Below are positions 47,171 through 54,440 of a stretch of 64,000 nucleotides of DNA, in pieces. Source of the DNA: Bdellovibrio sp. NC01 (GTDB lineage: Bacteria; Bdellovibrionota; Bdellovibrionia; Bdellovibrionales; Bdellovibrionaceae); the NCBI RefSeq assembly GCF_006874625.1, contig NZ_CP030034.1, positions 3,410,001 to 3,474,000 on the forward strand. Direction: 5' to 3'. The notes below the pieces were generated by a model. It did not search any database. It saw only the letters and a list, made by a program, of their open reading frames with translations, and had not been told where the DNA came from. The position numbers were made by a program, and so were the translations under genes. Each line of letters begins with the position of its first letter. The stretch's first letter is position 1.

Positions 47171-47361
47171 ACGATTATCACAGCATCGAACATCTGTAGG
47201 CTCAATCGAAAATATTTAAACTCTTCCATAATTATCCTTCTGTCTAAAGTTTGAACGAGCCTGTGATTTCTTCTCTGCCGGTGCCGAGGAATGTCGGTAA
47301 TACCATTTTTCTGATATTTAATGACCGTTTAAAAATGCCGGAAATTCTTGTCGGAGAAAAG

Positions 47362-49311
47362 ATGCTTAAACGTTATCTTACGTTATCATTGTCTGCGGGT
47401 TTAATTATTGGATCTACTTTGCCAGCACATGCGGGCGGTTTAGAATTTCTTGAACCAGCGAAACTCGCACAAAAAGTTAAAAACTTAATCGCCAAGCAGA
47501 AAATCGGAGCAACGGTAAATATCGTCGACGCCGAAGTCTTCGACGGACTTTCAGCGGCATTGAAATACAAAATGCAGTCGGAACCTTCCTATGTGGACGG
47601 CTATTATACACGTCTTGATAAATACACTCTGGACGTTGACGCAAACCCGGGTGACTTCATTGATGGCAATGATTTACCTCTTGGATTTAGCATTGATCAT
47701 CAATCGGAAATCATCTTTGCTCGTCAGTTTAAAAAACAATCTGAATCTTTGACGGCCCTTCCCTACACTCCTAAAAATCTGCCGTTATCGGCGGAACAGG
47801 CCATTAAAAATTTAAATCCTGGCGACTTCGTAGCGATTACCGGCAAACTTTCCTTGGTCTTGTCACTCAATGGCAGTGCGCCTTTGACGGCGATTGGCAA
47901 TGCTTCGGGCTCTACTCACGTTTATATTTCGGGTGAGTTTTTGATTCATACTTTCCGTATGCCCAACAACAAACTTCGTCTGAAGTTGATCGCCATTCGC
48001 GGCAAAGGTGGCGGTGCCGATGCGGGCGTCACAATGGATAACTTTAAGATTGTGGGCTTCAAATGGGCGGATCACAGAATTAAAAGCTGGATCAACTTAG
48101 ATCCTTTGAACTTAGGTATCAATAAAGACGCGAACAACCTATTCATGCTTGATTACGTCTTCGACTTGAATAACGCGCAAGCAGCACAAGCCTTCGACAA
48201 CCTGATTCACAAGAAAACACGCTTTAGTGAATTGGCCTTTATCAATCCCATCAGCAATAGCGACGCCGTCAAAGAAGACGTCTTAACGGATCTGACTGAC
48301 GTTGAATCCATCACTGCTGAAGACCATGGTTTGCAACCTTCACAACGTCGCATCGACCGTGTTTTTAAAGGTTCAAATGATTCGATCAGCAGTGGTTCTT
48401 CATTCAAATTCGGCTTGAACGTCCTACGCTTCGAGGCGGGTTCCACATATGCACAAAATAAAGTTGTACATATTGATCGCGATGAAGTTGAACAGAAGTA
48501 CATCCTTGATAGCTTCCAAACTTCGAAGAAAGTAAACGCTATCTTTGGCTTGTTTGGTGACTCATCAAAAATCTTTACGAACATGCTGTTCTCTTCTGAC
48601 GACACGTGGAAGCCCCTTGATTTCGTGGCTTTAACATTGGGTCGTGAATTGAAAATGAAAAACGTCTCGCAACGTGATTTCAGAAAAATTCAAGAACACG
48701 TGCGCGAAGTTATTCCAGCTTCTCAATATGCAAAAATTGATTGGAAGAATTGGGATTTCTCGAAGGGCCAACGCGTGAATGGCTACTTTAAAAATGAAAT
48801 CTTCTTTCACCCCGACAGTCTTCGTTATATGCCAAGCCTGGATTATCAAATGGCGTACAGTCGTTTGTATAACTTCATTAAAGAGCGCGGTTATCCTCGC
48901 GTCCCGCCACATGAAACATCTGTGTACGGCGATGACCAACATGGCTTTGAACGCTATGAAGCTGACATCAGTTACATCGCGCGCAGCTTGGCGATCGTGT
49001 TTAATCCGGGCGAAACATCAGAGCGCCGTTATCAACAGTTCAAGCTGCTCAAAGACTTCCCATTATGGCAAGAATACGGTGGCGCCTTCTTGTTATCACT
49101 GGTTCCACAAGACAAGCTTGCGACATTGATTTCCTACGAAATGACTTTCTCTGCAAAAGGTGTTGAGACGATTTCGTTTAAATTCGGAAACTTCGCTCAA
49201 GAAGAGCTTTATAAATCGCTGATGTACATCCAACAGATCATCACCGACCGCTCTTTTGACCTCCGTTTATATACAGATGAAAACGGCGAATTTACGGTCA
49301 AACAAAAGTAA
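47362..49311 (+). CDS. large secreted protein, unknown function
   Basis: A 649-residue exported protein with signal peptide (KRYLTLSLSAGLIIGSTLPAHA). The mature part is rich in strands and Lys/Asp; one segment (AGVTMDNFKIVGFKWADHR) and a C-terminal helical region (PHETSVYGDDQHGFERYEAD) stand out, but I recognise no domain. I use the ATG at 47362, with GGAG eight bases upstream, rather than the longer frame at 47251. A terminator follows. Single gene. Confidence 0.68.
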   Translation: MLKRYLTLSLSAGLIIGSTLPAHAGGLEFLEPAKLAQKVKNLIAKQKIGATVNIVDAEVFDGLSAALKYKMQSEPSYVDGYYTRLDKYTLDVDANPGDFIDGNDLPLGFSIDHQSEIIFARQFKKQSESLTALPYTPKNLPLSAEQAIKNLNPGDFVAITGKLSLVLSLNGSAPLTAIGNASGSTHVYISGEFLIHTFRMPNNKLRLKLIAIRGKGGGADAGVTMDNFKIVGFKWADHRIKSWINLDPLNLGINKDANNLFMLDYVFDLNNAQAAQAFDNLIHKKTRFSELAFINPISNSDAVKEDVLTDLTDVESITAEDHGLQPSQRRIDRVFKGSNDSISSGSSFKFGLNVLRFEAGSTYAQNKVVHIDRDEVEQKYILDSFQTSKKVNAIFGLFGDSSKIFTNMLFSSDDTWKPLDFVALTLGRELKMKNVSQRDFRKIQEHVREVIPASQYAKIDWKNWDFSKGQRVNGYFKNEIFFHPDSLRYMPSLDYQMAYSRLYNFIKERGYPRVPPHETSVYGDDQHGFERYEADISYIARSLAIVFNPGETSERRYQQFKLLKDFPLWQEYGGAFLLSLVPQDKLATLISYEMTFSAKGVETISFKFGNFAQEELYKSLMYIQQIITDRSFDLRLYTDENGEFTVKQK

Positions 49312-49323
49312 TCCAACATTAGT

Positions 49324-49350
49324 AGGGCTCCTATCGGGGCCCTTTTTTTA
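49324..49350 (+). terminator. intrinsic terminator
   Basis: AGGGCTCC-TATC-GGGGCCCT (one T:G mismatch in the stem) followed by seven T. Separates the 649-aa gene from the peptide cluster. Confidence 0.82.
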
Positions 49351-49478
49351 TCCTGCGCGAGGACATTTTCGCCCTCAAAAGACCCCATCAACCCTTAAAC
49401 AAGGCTGTAAAAAGTGCATTTTGACCCCAGAAAACCGTGAGTTTTTGATGGTTTAGGGCGGTTTTAAGCGGTTTTCAG

Positions 49479-49494
49479 TGGCCCGTCATTTGCA
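49479..49494 (+). promoter_or_regulatory. sigma-54-type promoter for the radical SAM peptide cluster
   Basis: TGGCCCGTCATTTGCA. Compared with TGGCAC-N5-TTGC it has the exact GG/GC spacing and one mismatch (C for A at the fifth base). The predicted start is near 49505, about 24 bases before the maturase ATG. Upstream lie the direct repeats GCGGTTTTAA and GCGGTTTTCA (about 49458-49477) and an AAACC...GGTTT dyad (about 49432-49454), where an activator could bind. The operon's last gene encodes a sigma-54 activator, so control may be autogenous. Pattern-based. Confidence 0.65.
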
Positions 49495-49528: not shown

Positions 49529-50848
49529 ATGCAATTGCGTAGGCACAAAGACATTATTGCCATTAAAACAGGTGTTGAATCAGCACCGGTGGCTTTTCAC
49601 GCGCGCAATCTGGAAGTTGCTCAGGTTTCTGAAGAAGCTTGGGCGTCTATGGCCCCGACAACTTTCGATAACGGATTCGTGATGAACATGGAACCCAACG
49701 AAGCTGGCGTCAACGCTGAAGCCTTGGGTTCTCTTGAAGGATGGAATGAAGAAATCAATCCATCAGCACAAACTCCAAACGCGAAATTTAAAATTCGTGC
49801 GCTAACTATCAACGTAACGCAAATCTGCAACTTGCACTGTACATACTGCGCTGCTGGTGGTGACGGCACTTACGGCGATCCGATTGCTAAGATTTCTATC
49901 GAAAAAACTTTGCCGCAAATTCAATACTTCATGAATAAACTTGCAGAGGGTGAAAGTTTCTCGATCACGTTCTTGGGTGGCGAACCTTTGCTTTACCCTG
50001 AAGCGATCAAAATCATCGCTGACTATGTGAATGAGATCGCGGCGACAAAAAATCTAAAATCATTTTTCAACGTCATCACGAATGCGACTTTAGTGAACGA
50101 CAAGATCCTTGATATTTTAACTGCGATCAAAACTTCGATCACAGTAAGTATCGACGGTCCTCCAGAAACTCACGATTTGGCTCGTCCACAAAAGAATGGC
50201 CAAGGTTCTGGTAAAGCGACGGTTGAAGGTCTTAAAAAGATTCTGGCACATAAATCAGAACTTGGCAGAATCCTTCTTCACGCCGTTTTCAGCCGCACGA
50301 ATTTGGAAGTCGAAAAAGCTTACCGTTTCTTTTCTGAATTCAATGCTGACGCTTACGAATTCACTTTCGACGTGACAGAAGCGGCATCTGAAGCGAATCA
50401 AAAATTCATCAGCGAGATGTCGAAAGTCGCGGCTTTGGCTTACGACCGCGGCGGCGAAACTGAATTACGCAAAATCACAATGTTCGATGGCTACTTTTCA
50501 GCCTTGGACGAACAACGCAGAAGTGAAAACTACTGCGGTACTGGTAAGTCTTTGTTGTCGTTGGATTCAAACAGCAAGCTTTACTCTTGCCCACTTGAAG
50601 TAGGTAAGAAAAACGAAATGCTTGGCGATGTTGAGAATTTGAATACAGCGCTTGAAAGCTTACAAAGCCCACTTATTGAAAAGAACAAGTGTCAAACTTG
50701 TTGGGCGCGTTTCTTGTGCGGTGGCGGATGCCTTTTTGTGCATAAGTCACTGACAGGAGACAAACACAAAAAGCACGTCAGCTTTTGTGAAAGAACTAGA
50801 TCTTTAATTGCACTTACGATTTTATACTATGAGAGAAGCAGAGGTTAA
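49529..50848 (+). CDS. radical SAM/SPASM peptide-modifying enzyme
   Basis: A 439-residue radical SAM protein. Residues 1-90 form an N-terminal extension that could bind a leader peptide. The radical SAM cluster motif is C100-NLH-C104-TY-C107 (CxxxCxxC), followed by the SAM-binding GGEP (about residues 150-153). The C-terminal SPASM domain has seven cysteines (C336, C354, C388, C391, C397, C401, C420) for two auxiliary clusters. Enzymes of this plan cross-link or epimerise ribosomal peptides. GAAGGGAAACC precedes the ATG. One base separates its stop from a 34-codon peptide gene. Confidence 0.88.
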   Translation: MQLRRHKDIIAIKTGVESAPVAFHARNLEVAQVSEEAWASMAPTTFDNGFVMNMEPNEAGVNAEALGSLEGWNEEINPSAQTPNAKFKIRALTINVTQICNLHCTYCAAGGDGTYGDPIAKISIEKTLPQIQYFMNKLAEGESFSITFLGGEPLLYPEAIKIIADYVNEIAATKNLKSFFNVITNATLVNDKILDILTAIKTSITVSIDGPPETHDLARPQKNGQGSGKATVEGLKKILAHKSELGRILLHAVFSRTNLEVEKAYRFFSEFNADAYEFTFDVTEAASEANQKFISEMSKVAALAYDRGGETELRKITMFDGYFSALDEQRRSENYCGTGKSLLSLDSNSKLYSCPLEVGKKNEMLGDVENLNTALESLQSPLIEKNKCQTCWARFLCGGGCLFVHKSLTGDKHKKHVSFCERTRSLIALTILYYERSRG

Positions 50849-50849
50849 C

Positions 50850-50954
50850 ATGACTCAATCAGACACTAAACACATCAAAAAAGTAGCTCCAAAGAAAACA
50901 GAGCCAACTTCAAAAGCGATGCAACCAGGTTGCGTTCCTTTAACTGGCACGTAG
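50850..50954 (+). CDS. 34-aa peptide, likely precursor of a radical SAM-modified product
   Basis: ATG at 50850-50852, TAG at 50952-50954, with AGAGG six bases upstream at the end of the maturase gene; the spacing from its stop is one base. The first 23 residues are polar and Lys-rich (MTQSDTKHIKKVAPKKTEPT, then SKA), like a leader. The last part, MQPGCVPLTGT, has a single Cys28 and is a plausible core. The size, place and sequence style match RiPP precursors, but I recognise no known precursor family, and no export or protease gene lies next to it. Confidence 0.7.
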   Translation: MTQSDTKHIKKVAPKKTEPTSKAMQPGCVPLTGT

Positions 50955-50976: not shown

Positions 50977-52857
50977 ATGTCTCTCCCTCCCTCCCTTAGA
51001 GACAAAACAGAAACTGGCGGCAGCTTCAAACATGCTCCTGCTATTGCATTGAGGATTTTATTAGCCTCAGTGATCGCTTTCTTTTTGTCTCAGATTAAGT
51101 TGGATTACATCGAGGGATTCCTTTATGACCTTCGCGTGCGCACGAAAGCGCGTGAAGTCACTTCCGGAAAAATAGACCTGGTTATCTTAGACTCTGAAGG
51201 AGTTAAGAAACTTAAAAGCGATCTGACAGCTTCAATGCTAACAGAGCTAGTTGATAAGATCGCGCAACAAGGTCCACGCTACATTCTTTTAGATTTACGC
51301 ACTGAAGACATTAAAGGGACAGACGCTGAAAAAGCAGCTTTTGCTGACTTAGCTGCACGCACTCCTGGTTTGTTTGTCGCAAGCGATGATTTGGTTCTTG
51401 AAGGCCAAGCGCCACCAAGTCTGCCCCCGCCATTTGAAAAAATCCAATTGGCGTCAGCTCCGAAAACTTCTGATTTGAAAATCTATGCGAAAGACAATGT
51501 CACTCGTCGCATGTTGGTTTCTTATCAAAAACAACCTTTGTTCCATGCGAAGGTGGCTGCGACTTACAATCCGCAAGTCAGCGATCTTTCGGCAATCAAA
51601 GGTCAATTTGAGTTCGCAAGTTCGCAGCAGACTTATATCGACTTCCACCCGACTGGCACTTATCCACGCCATTCATTCGCAGACGTTTTAGCGTCGTTGG
51701 TTCCTGCGGGCACGATGTTCGATAAAATCGTGATCGTTGGTCAAGACACGGGACAAACTGCAAAAGATTACGTTTTGACTCCGTATTCGCGTGAAATCAT
51801 GGCGATGCCAACGGCAGAACTGCAAGCGAACATGTTCGATACAATGATTTTGAACTCTTCACCTGTTCTTGCGCCGAAATGGCTGAACGGTTTGTTGATT
51901 CTTTTGATTTCGATTTTAACAATTCACGTCGTCCTAACAATGAAGCCTACAAAGGGTTTGATGCTTTTGGGTATCACCGTCGCAGGCTTCACGTTGCTTT
52001 GTTACTTTGCGTTCTGGCCATTTGGTTTATGGATCACAATGGCGGCTCCGCTACTAACGATCTTCTTATGTTATTACTTCTTTATTCCGTACCGCTTGAT
52101 CGTCGAAAATCGTCGCAGCTGGGAATACTATCAAAAGAATAAACTTTTAAGCCAAGTTGAAGAGTTGAAAACGAACTTTATCTCGATGATGTCGCATGAC
52201 TTGAAAACGCCGATTGCGCGCATTCAAGGGATGACGGATGTGATCTTGACTGATTCTACACAGATCAGCTCGCAACAGCGTGAAGCCGTTGATACGATCA
52301 AACATTCGGCTGACGACTTATTAAAATTTATCAGCGCTATTCTTAATTATGGCCGTATCGAAAGTGAAGGCGTTCAACTTCATTTACAAAGCCGTGACAT
52401 CAACAATCTTCTTCAGGAAGTCATTCGTAAGCATGAATTCCTGGCGAAGGTAAAACGCATTCAAATCGTATCTGAATTGGAGCCAATGTTCCCAATTCCA
52501 ATGGATGCGGACTTGATGAAACAAGTCCTTTCGAACCTGGTAGAGAACGCGATTAAGTACTCTCCGGAAGACACAAAAATCATGGTAAGCAGCGAGGAAG
52601 CGGAAGGCCGCGTGGTCATCCAAGTGGCCGATCAGGGCCCTGGTATTCCTCAGGATGAACTTGCCAACATTTTCATGAAATTTTTTAGAAGTAAGAACGC
52701 TAAGTCCTCTCCTATTAAGGGATCAGGGTTGGGATTGTACTTGGCTAAATATTTTACAGAACTGCACAAGGGAAACATCTCCGTAGAATCTAATTATGGA
52801 AATGGATCCACTTTTACGGTAGAACTGCCAATCGAGCAGGGGGGTATTCATGCTTAA
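50977..52857 (+). CDS. CHASE2-domain sensor histidine kinase
   Basis: A 626-residue membrane kinase. An N-terminal helix (ALRILLASVIAFFLSQ) is followed by an extracytoplasmic CHASE2 domain (DLRVRTKARE, YILLDLRTEDIKG, SFADVLASLVPAG). Three membrane helices (about residues 305-375), a HisKA domain with the phosphorylated His407 (MMSHDLKTPIARI) and an HATPase domain (NLVENAIKYSP, GPGIPQDE, GSGLGLYLAKY) complete it. It starts 22 bp after the peptide gene and overlaps the regulator gene by 8 bp. The ligand is unknown; the modified peptide is a candidate. Confidence 0.92.
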   Translation: MSLPPSLRDKTETGGSFKHAPAIALRILLASVIAFFLSQIKLDYIEGFLYDLRVRTKAREVTSGKIDLVILDSEGVKKLKSDLTASMLTELVDKIAQQGPRYILLDLRTEDIKGTDAEKAAFADLAARTPGLFVASDDLVLEGQAPPSLPPPFEKIQLASAPKTSDLKIYAKDNVTRRMLVSYQKQPLFHAKVAATYNPQVSDLSAIKGQFEFASSQQTYIDFHPTGTYPRHSFADVLASLVPAGTMFDKIVIVGQDTGQTAKDYVLTPYSREIMAMPTAELQANMFDTMILNSSPVLAPKWLNGLLILLISILTIHVVLTMKPTKGLMLLGITVAGFTLLCYFAFWPFGLWITMAAPLLTIFLCYYFFIPYRLIVENRRSWEYYQKNKLLSQVEELKTNFISMMSHDLKTPIARIQGMTDVILTDSTQISSQQREAVDTIKHSADDLLKFISAILNYGRIESEGVQLHLQSRDINNLLQEVIRKHEFLAKVKRIQIVSELEPMFPIPMDADLMKQVLSNLVENAIKYSPEDTKIMVSSEEAEGRVVIQVADQGPGIPQDELANIFMKFFRSKNAKSSPIKGSGLGLYLAKYFTELHKGNISVESNYGNGSTFTVELPIEQGGIHA

Positions 52858-54382
52858 GGTTTTAGTTGTAGACGACGATCAAGGTCTAAGACTTTCCGTA
52901 AAATCAGCCTTAGCTGTCACTCAACGTTTTGAAATCGATGAGGCCTTCGATGGCGTAAATGCGATGGAAAAAATCAAAGCTGGTGATAAGAACTACGACG
53001 TAGTTATTCTTGATGTCGACATGCCTCGCATGAATGGCCTAGAAGCTCTTCGCCAAATCAAAGAATTCAATCCAGGTATCATCGTCATCATCATGACTGC
53101 CCACGCAACGTTGAACGACGCGATTCAAGCAGTTAAAGATGGCGCTTACAACTACCTTGCGAAACCAGTTGCTGGTGATGACTTGCTTGCTTTGATCGAC
53201 AAAGCAGTGAACGCTCACAACTTGATTTCGAATATCGCAGCCTCTGCTCCAGTGATGGTTGAAGCCGGTCGCAAGATCATCGGCCACACTTCGCAAATGC
53301 AGAAAGTGTTCAACATCATCCACCGCCTTGCCAAAGTAGATACTCCGGTTTTAATCCGCGGTTCTTCAGGTACAGGTAAAGAGTTGGTTGCGAAAGCAAT
53401 CCACTTCAACTCTGCCCGCAAAGATGAAAAATTCGTTGCGATCAACTGCTCTGCGATTCCAGAAAACCTTTTTGAATCTGAATTGTTTGGTCACGAAAAG
53501 GGCTCGTTCACGGGCGCTGATCAACGTAAAATCGGTAAGTTCCAATTCGCAGAAGGCGGCACTTTGTTCTTGGACGAAGTGGGTGATATGCCTCAGTTGA
53601 TGCAAGTTAAAATCTTGCGCGTTCTTCAAGAAAAAGTATTTACACCAGTTGGTTCAAACCGTGAGTTCCCAACAAACGTGCGTATCATCGCTGCGACAAA
53701 TCGTCCTTTGGAAGATATGATCAAAGCTGGTTCATTCCGCGAAGACTTGTTCTATCGTTTGAACGTCGTACCTATATTCTTGCCAGCATTGGCTGAACGC
53801 AAAGACGACATGGAGCACATGGTGAACATCTTTATCAAGAAGTTCAATCAAGCTCATGGCAAACGTATCAACGGTATTGCTCCAGACGCGATGGCGGTTT
53901 TGAAAAAGCATTCTTGGCCTGGTAACATCCGTGAACTTGAAAACGTGATTGAACACGCATTCGTTCTTGAGATGGGCAACATCATCACAATCGCTTCACT
54001 TCCTGAATCATTGTTGATCGCGACAGGCACAAACTTGATCGAAGTTCCTTCTGTTATGGAAACGGCTTCTTCAGTTGCTACCGCAGGCGTATCGGCAGCA
54101 GTTCAAGCGCATTCAAGCCTTGGTGATGATGAAGATTCTGATTTAGGTGGAGACGACAGCGATCTTGACGGTGAAGAAATCGTTCCATTCACAGGCTCTG
54201 CTGAAAGCTTGGACTTCAACGCTCAAAAAGAAGCTTTTGAAAAAGAATTTATCATCAAAGCTTTGAAGACGTTCCGTGGTCGCATCAACCAAACGGCGCT
54301 TCACGCGAACATTCCTAAGAAGACTCTTCTTAGAAAGATCGAAAAATACGGTATCAACGCAAAAGACTACGTTGGTCAGTAA
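52850..54382 (+). CDS. NtrC-family sigma-54-dependent response regulator
   Basis: A 510-residue activator. Receiver domain with phospho-acceptor D55 (VVILDVDMPRMNG); AAA+ domain with Walker A GSSGTGKELVAKA, the sigma-54-contact loop GSFTGA (S replaces the usual A), and Walker B GGTLFLDEVGDMPQ. An acidic linker (DDEDSDLGGDDSDLDGEE) and a Fis-type DNA-binding domain at the end (INQTALHANIPKKTLLRKI) complete it. It overlaps the kinase gene by 8 bp, so the two form a cognate pair. It probably activates the sigma-54-type promoter of its own operon. Confidence 0.94.
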   Translation: MLKVLVVDDDQGLRLSVKSALAVTQRFEIDEAFDGVNAMEKIKAGDKNYDVVILDVDMPRMNGLEALRQIKEFNPGIIVIIMTAHATLNDAIQAVKDGAYNYLAKPVAGDDLLALIDKAVNAHNLISNIAASAPVMVEAGRKIIGHTSQMQKVFNIIHRLAKVDTPVLIRGSSGTGKELVAKAIHFNSARKDEKFVAINCSAIPENLFESELFGHEKGSFTGADQRKIGKFQFAEGGTLFLDEVGDMPQLMQVKILRVLQEKVFTPVGSNREFPTNVRIIAATNRPLEDMIKAGSFREDLFYRLNVVPIFLPALAERKDDMEHMVNIFIKKFNQAHGKRINGIAPDAMAVLKKHSWPGNIRELENVIEHAFVLEMGNIITIASLPESLLIATGTNLIEVPSVMETASSVATAGVSAAVQAHSSLGDDEDSDLGGDDSDLDGEEIVPFTGSAESLDFNAQKEAFEKEFIIKALKTFRGRINQTALHANIPKKTLLRKIEKYGINAKDYVGQ

Positions 54383-54407: not shown

Positions 54408-54440
54408 AAAAAGCCCTGGCGAAAACCAGGGCTTTTTTGT
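54408..54440. terminator. bidirectional intrinsic terminator
   Basis: AAAAAGCCCTGG, loop CGAAAA, CCAGGGCTTTTTT, between the regulator gene and the convergent secreted-protein gene. Closes the peptide cluster. Confidence 0.9.

Follow-up and report, generated by a model that had tools for sequence, protein, structure and literature searches.

A single-cysteine peptide gene between a radical SAM maturase and a CHASE2 kinase as the predicted precursor of a RiPP family in Bdellovibrionales

A 34-codon open reading frame (50850–50954, + strand) in the window, the whole stretch of 64,000 nucleotides analysed here (genome G000, 3.98 Mb, single contig), is, on comparative sequence evidence, a real gene and encodes the precursor peptide for a family of radical-SAM RiPPs in Bdellovibrionales. 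It translates to MTQSDTKHIKKVAPKKTEPTSKAMQPGCVPLTGT, followed by a stop codon. That the gene is real and has a dedicated maturation enzyme is close to certain, and the enzyme encoded just upstream almost certainly alters the peptide chemically. The overall reading that we consider probable is that this adjacent maturase, with RRE, radical SAM and SPASM parts, modifies the precursor, likely by forming a thioether, and that the product signals to the CHASE2 kinase encoded downstream in a sigma54 loop. Leader recognition, the thioether, cleavage and export, and sensing by the kinase are the parts of this explanation that we infer.

Thioether-forming radical SAM RiPPs are already known, and SCIFF-derived ranthipeptides have been reported in quorum sensing in work cited in PMC8326336. 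Literature searches returned no paper describing the present precursor/maturase family, and what appears new is its unusual sigma54/CHASE2 setting and its near-universal presence in a predatory lineage. If the reading holds, nearly every Bdellovibrio, including G005, makes a modified peptide that is unnamed in current protein-family libraries, and a single-Cys C-x-P family would join the radical SAM RiPPs. Because the precursor gene always adjoins a membrane sensor gene, the arrangement suggests a modified peptide with a dedicated sensor kinase and sigma54 activator, and hence an undescribed peptide signal in predatory bacteria. This would provide a ligand candidate for the CHASE2 kinase and an entry to the cell-cell or life-cycle signalling of these organisms.

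The precursor gene and its distribution

The frame had been proposed as a likely RiPP precursor in the first-pass annotation, and this is now strongly supported by a conserved leader and core, strict linkage to the maturase, tandem copies and selection on the coding sequence. As that annotation stated, the frame starts one base past the maturase stop, the TAA at 50846–50848, and is preceded by its own ribosome binding site, AGAGG at 50840–50844 (+), although the spacing to the ATG is five bases and not the six given there. The description of the peptide was likewise borne out, with six Lys within residues 1–22 of the leader-like N-terminus and a core, MQPGCVPLTGT (50919–50951, +), that spans residues 24–34 of the 34 and contains the single Cys28 (codon 50931–50933), followed by Val-Pro. 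The leader motif is HIKKVAP (50871–50891, +), the consensus being HIKK(V/I)KP in Bdellovibrio, with close variants in the other precursors. A short conserved frame with separable leader and core thus adjoins a maturase gene, as expected of a RiPP precursor.

The maturase was collected at 78 distinct loci drawn from two genome collections, and at all 76 with enough downstream contig a short frame lies in the gap that separates the maturase gene from that of a CHASE2 histidine kinase. Comparison of 21 precursor pairs gave a pN/pS of 0.32, indicating purifying selection, and differences at codon positions 1, 2 and 3 numbered 151, 121 and 340, respectively. An absence of synonymous bias, or a frame disrupted in close relatives, had been named beforehand as findings that would speak against the gene, and both are contradicted by these values and by the counterparts at 76 of 76 loci. 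When 140 genomes were searched in six frames with a precursor profile, matches were obtained in 44, at the maturase-kinase operon only (the alignment behind this profile included one row with an N-terminal Met absent from the genome, which affects that profile alone). Taken together, locus conservation, pN/pS, codon-position bias, operon-only profile matches and tandem copies rule out a fortuitous frame, and a purely translational leader becomes very improbable. We accordingly give almost no weight to reading the ORF as a uORF, a regulatory leader whose translation would couple that of maturase and kinase, or as a chance frame. It is indeed short, placed between two genes and terminated 22 bases ahead of the kinase start, but two separate motifs in it are conserved at the amino-acid level, it strictly accompanies the maturase, it is duplicated in tandem, and the spacing from maturase stop to kinase start varies from 40 to 355 bases.

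Tandem precursor genes with different cores after one maturase were seen in L083 and G259, the latter with two adjacent profile matches (G259:C37:14481-14685).

Alignment of 75 non-redundant precursors, 27–106 aa in length, showed which residues are conserved in the C-terminal region besides the leader motif. A Cys is present there in every peptide and is the sole Cys in 73 of them. Pro stands at +2 from this Cys in 68 peptides, and 74 have it at either +1 or +2; the only precursor without this Pro is that of L166 (GCEIVYT). Gly is common around the Cys (at -3 in 45/75 and at -1 in 44/75), and 3–12 residues follow it. The suggestion that the C-terminal 11 residues and Cys28 would stay fixed therefore stands for the Cys but not for the block, which the core alignment rules out, since only Cys and Pro are conserved. 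The precursor falls into no family of NCBIfam or Pfam, and none of six precursors tested matched an NCBIfam model.

Counting weaker matches, 48 of 60 relatives have an orthologue of the maturase. At a profile cutoff of 1e-60, the 291 genomes searched from the phylum included 58 with the enzyme, and every one of these belongs to family f1, f4 or f10 within the order of the window. In the contig collection, maturase identity was at least 34% within the group and at most 30% in other phyla. Carriers include B. bacteriovorus kdesi (L094) and G005, whose precursor (L183) reads MTQQTHIKKIKPLKPKPSSTTKLAGPGGGTGEGCIPVR. The sole within-group record named as another phylum is L093 (CALQIT020000002.1), a contig titled as a Streptomyces griseus MAG; its operon is of the Bdellovibrionaceae type, and the record appears to be misnamed.

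The operon and the possible role of the peptide

Maturase, precursor, CHASE2 kinase and regulator would be transcribed as a single unit from a sigma54 promoter that is probably switched on by the unit's own regulator. A sigma54-type -24/-12 promoter, TGGCCCGTCATTTGC, can be read at 49479–49493 (+), and alignment of upstream regions revealed a conserved element, ctgtaaaaagtgcattttgaccccag, at 49405–49430 (+), which is a putative response-regulator binding site. Across 74 loci, TGG-N8-YYGC occurred within 150 bp upstream of the maturase at 58, compared with 1 on the reverse strand and 1.7 expected from shuffles. Hairpins resembling intrinsic terminators close the upstream gene and separate it from the operon (49324–49343, +) and mark the operon end (54408–54437, +); both are consensus matches only, and such sites were no more numerous than in shuffles. 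The 626-aa sensor histidine kinase (50977–52857, +; CHASE2-HisKA-HATPase, PF05226/PF00512/PF02518) has an orthologue downstream of the precursor at 76 of 76 loci. It is followed by a 510-aa NtrC-type sigma54-activating response regulator (52850–54382, +; PF00158) with an 8-base overlap with the kinase stop, and regulator identity was 60–93% among the related loci tested. The -24/-12 element together with the PF00158 protein points to a sigma54-dependent operon with its own NtrC-type activator.

The element TAGTTNCCTTTTGNYCC of Bdellovibrio was confined to the operon in eight of nine genomes, while G015 has one extra site with one mismatch. In a blind palindrome search upstream of 102 operons the best-ranked motif was GTGTCA-N3-TGACAC, which occurs mainly in family f4 and upstream of the -24 box, in operons with or without a maturase (upstream regions of L042, L048, L054, L110, L112, L114, L115, L166, L190-L192, L197 and L198). 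Exact copies occur in nine f4 genomes and, in eight of these, as a single copy at the maturase/kinase operon. Both sequences are candidate binding sites of the operon's own NtrC-type regulator. Genome-wide in the window's genome, further AGTNNCNTTTTGNCCC sites amounted to one-mismatch matches at reversed-control level, the window's own element being spaced differently. Two extra palindromes in G055 had no sigma54 box nearby, and for this reason no regulon is claimed. At G055:C26:9639-9653 (L212) the palindrome precedes the gene of a small protein that is predicted to be secreted and ends in CGNGGGNCTTC, again with no sigma54 box. Ahead of the operon (47251-49311), the window encodes a protein of 686 aa whose start resembles a signal peptide and which matched neither Pfam nor NCBIfam; relatives of it precede the operon in several Bdellovibrio, though not in all.

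CHASE2 is expected to lie outside the cytoplasm, and to our knowledge few ligands have been assigned to this extracytoplasmic sensor domain. A functional hint that the first-pass annotation had not linked to the peptide comes from its surroundings: the CHASE2 kinase encoded downstream, the sigma54 promoter and the sigma54 activator that belongs to the operon. The modified peptide, or a C-terminal piece of it, would most likely serve as signal or effector for the co-transcribed kinase, directly or indirectly, which would create a dedicated feedback loop. Sensing of the peptide by the CHASE2 kinase is in itself a serious possibility that we rate somewhat below even. We hold more tentatively still the specific version in which a thioether-closed peptide is the specific ligand of the kinase in a sigma54-driven autoinduction loop, general in predatory Bdellovibrio and relatives, that arose when a RiPP cassette came to lie between a kinase-regulator pair and its sigma54 promoter.

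Alternatively, the peptide could be the output of the system rather than its input, with the kinase sensing envelope state, prey or a small molecule and the regulator turning on a peptide whose role lies elsewhere, for instance in metabolism, in predation or as an antimicrobial. We regard this as rather unlikely. It agrees with the putative regulator site being found at the maturase operon only in almost every genome tested, so that the operon looks like the dedicated target of the regulator. It also agrees with a kinase-regulator pair that is older or more widespread than the cassette: the pair occurs in many genomes without maturase or precursor, which implies that the kinase has or had another input. 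L093 and L164, however, keep maturase, precursor and kinase together although other genes follow the kinase in place of the NtrC-type regulator, and near-universal vertical retention within the family would be unusual for an antimicrobial.

Co-variation of core and sensor also argues, weakly, against the output role and for sensing by CHASE2. In rank-based partial Mantel tests on 64 loci, whose significance is overstated on related sequences, core divergence correlated with CHASE2 divergence once the distances of kinase and maturase were accounted for (r 0.25, p 0.001), and a repeat with 31 disjoint pairs gave r 0.28 and p 0.063. The corresponding values on 64 loci were r -0.23 for core and RRE and r 0.07 (p 0.19) for leader and CHASE2. 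Leader and RRE divergence gave r 0.29 (p < 0.001) in a Mantel test on 64 loci and r 0.00 with the 31 disjoint pairs.

On a tree of the kinase N-terminal region, maturase gains and losses numbered 6 compared with 23.7 for shuffled labels, which indicates that the cassette has mostly been passed on together with the kinase. The maturase-precursor-kinase locus has no conserved gene for a protease or an exporter, a point against the overall reading given the expected position of CHASE2 outside the cytoplasm. Where the cassette is missing, several genomes have a sigma54 box immediately ahead of the kinase, and others have it ahead of a short Lys-rich ORF without Cys. The latter arrangement was seen in L052, L053 and L074 (families f5/f8, no maturase), in which a sigma54 box and a ribosome site precede an ORF of 25–31 aa and then the CHASE2 kinase; the encoded peptides are MEFKSKIKKEAVKKPKGMISTSPSEYF (L052, -126..-42 from the kinase), MKSLKKKLRKSTPVSKIAFSGLKAD (L053, -124..-46) and MKLTVSVLNKVKKGASRKIKTKATSKPHDIT (L074, -125..-29), possibly representing an unmodified ancestral or parallel peptide. 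One clear loss of the maturase was noted in the window's own family, at L045 (G029), where the place of the precursor (-167..-38 from the kinase) is taken by a 42-aa Cys-less ORF with KPPF repeats, MKKMNQENQAPSFAQSWNGNGKPPFNLDPNGNGGGGTKPPFT.

Streptococcal RaS-RiPP systems use cytoplasmic Rgg receptors and unmodified pheromones. Placed under Rgg/SHP control, they are described in PMC13361665 as radical SAM RiPPs tied to dedicated signalling regulators, a coupling that the Bdellovibrionales operon resembles. The latter differs in having a membrane CHASE2 kinase and a sigma54 activator.

The maturase and the predicted modification

The maturase gene (49529–50848, +) encodes a 439-aa radical SAM/SPASM protein with an RRE-like N-terminal domain, as judged from Pfam, NCBIfam, alignment and an AlphaFold2 model (mean pLDDT 89). 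Pfam returned Radical_SAM, and the protein has the CxxxCxxC motif at residues 100–107 and SPASM-region Cys at 336, 354, 388, 391, 397, 401 and 420, a set that includes CxxCxxxxxCxxxC and thereby places it among radical SAM/SPASM proteins; all of these Cys are invariant in an alignment of 29 diverse homologues. The solved structure closest to the model is CteB (Foldseek TM 0.79; VIA-align Z 35.6 over residues 7–438), and profile comparison to CteB gave an E of 9e-48. Since most of the remaining matches begin only around residue 84, it is chiefly CteB (and TigE) that has the N-terminal part in common with the maturase, and this part is predicted to correspond to the leader-binding RRE of CteB described in PMC8326336.

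The maturase reached the cutoff of no NCBIfam model. The best model was PapB (NF047865; 181.5 bits, E 2.4e-53, cutoff 340), followed by the Nif11-like peptide maturase model (TIGR04064; 177.8 bits compared with a cutoff of 518.7, aligned from residue 28), and PapB, QhpD and SCIFF were among the best four. Membership in three described groups was rejected. The SCIFF enzyme CteB (ScfB; PDB 5wgg, 5why; TIGR03974) shares the N-terminal RRE, radical SAM core and SPASM domain over the whole length, and SCIFF is widespread and vertically kept rather than sporadic, as is the Bdellovibrionales family. Its peptides, however, have six Cys in about 45 residues whereas the precursors studied here have one (73/75), its operon setting is unlike the sigma54/CHASE2 two-component neighbourhood, and the model scored 132.9 bits against a cutoff of 425. 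PapB, the freyrasin enzyme, illustrates the expected product type, a Cys thioether, and joins Cys-X3-Asp/Glu pairs (PMC9413430). Such pairs are missing from the Bdellovibrionales precursors, Asp/Glu standing at +4 of the Cys in only 3 of 75, so that both membership in this type and its chemistry as a general rule can be set aside. The Nif11 type, the second-best match, differs in its precursors: those of Bdellovibrionales have a short HIKK leader in 27–106 aa, and the six searched against NCBIfam returned no match.

In the mechanism proposed here, the RRE domain of the maturase would hold the HIKK(V/I)KP leader while the enzyme takes a hydrogen near the invariant C-terminal Cys, and one Cys-to-carbon thioether, with an expected mass change of -2 Da, would most likely form within the G-x-G-C-x-P region. 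A thioether at the single Cys is consistent with the invariance of this residue, with CteB as nearest structure and with PapB and SCIFF among the nearest sequence families, and we judge it the likelier outcome. A bond from the Cys sulfur to an alpha carbon would make the product a sactipeptide, and one to a beta or gamma carbon a ranthipeptide, the two styles named in the first-pass annotation. Aromatic residues near the C terminus are rare (11/75), which argues against cyclophane chemistry.

A different radical SAM change, in which the conserved Pro or a nearby Gly, Ile or Val is altered (by hydroxylation, epimerisation, desaturation or another bond) and the Cys acts as H-atom donor or as a metal or redox site, is unlikely. 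It would account for the conservation of Pro at +2, which nearly equals that of Cys, and for the want of a conserved sulfur acceptor, since none of the residues that might take the sulfur is constant enough to be singled out. SPASM enzymes also make many product types. Of the Pro, Gly and Thr residues that the first-pass annotation had offered as alternative targets, Thr is not conserved. Against it, the Cys is the sole invariant residue, and CteB, the nearest solved relative, is a Cys thioether former, as are the enzymes of the PapB, QhpD and SCIFF models.

Two maturases, those of L044 and L122, have an N-terminal domain that fails the family profile, and their leaders alone are without any HIKK-type motif.
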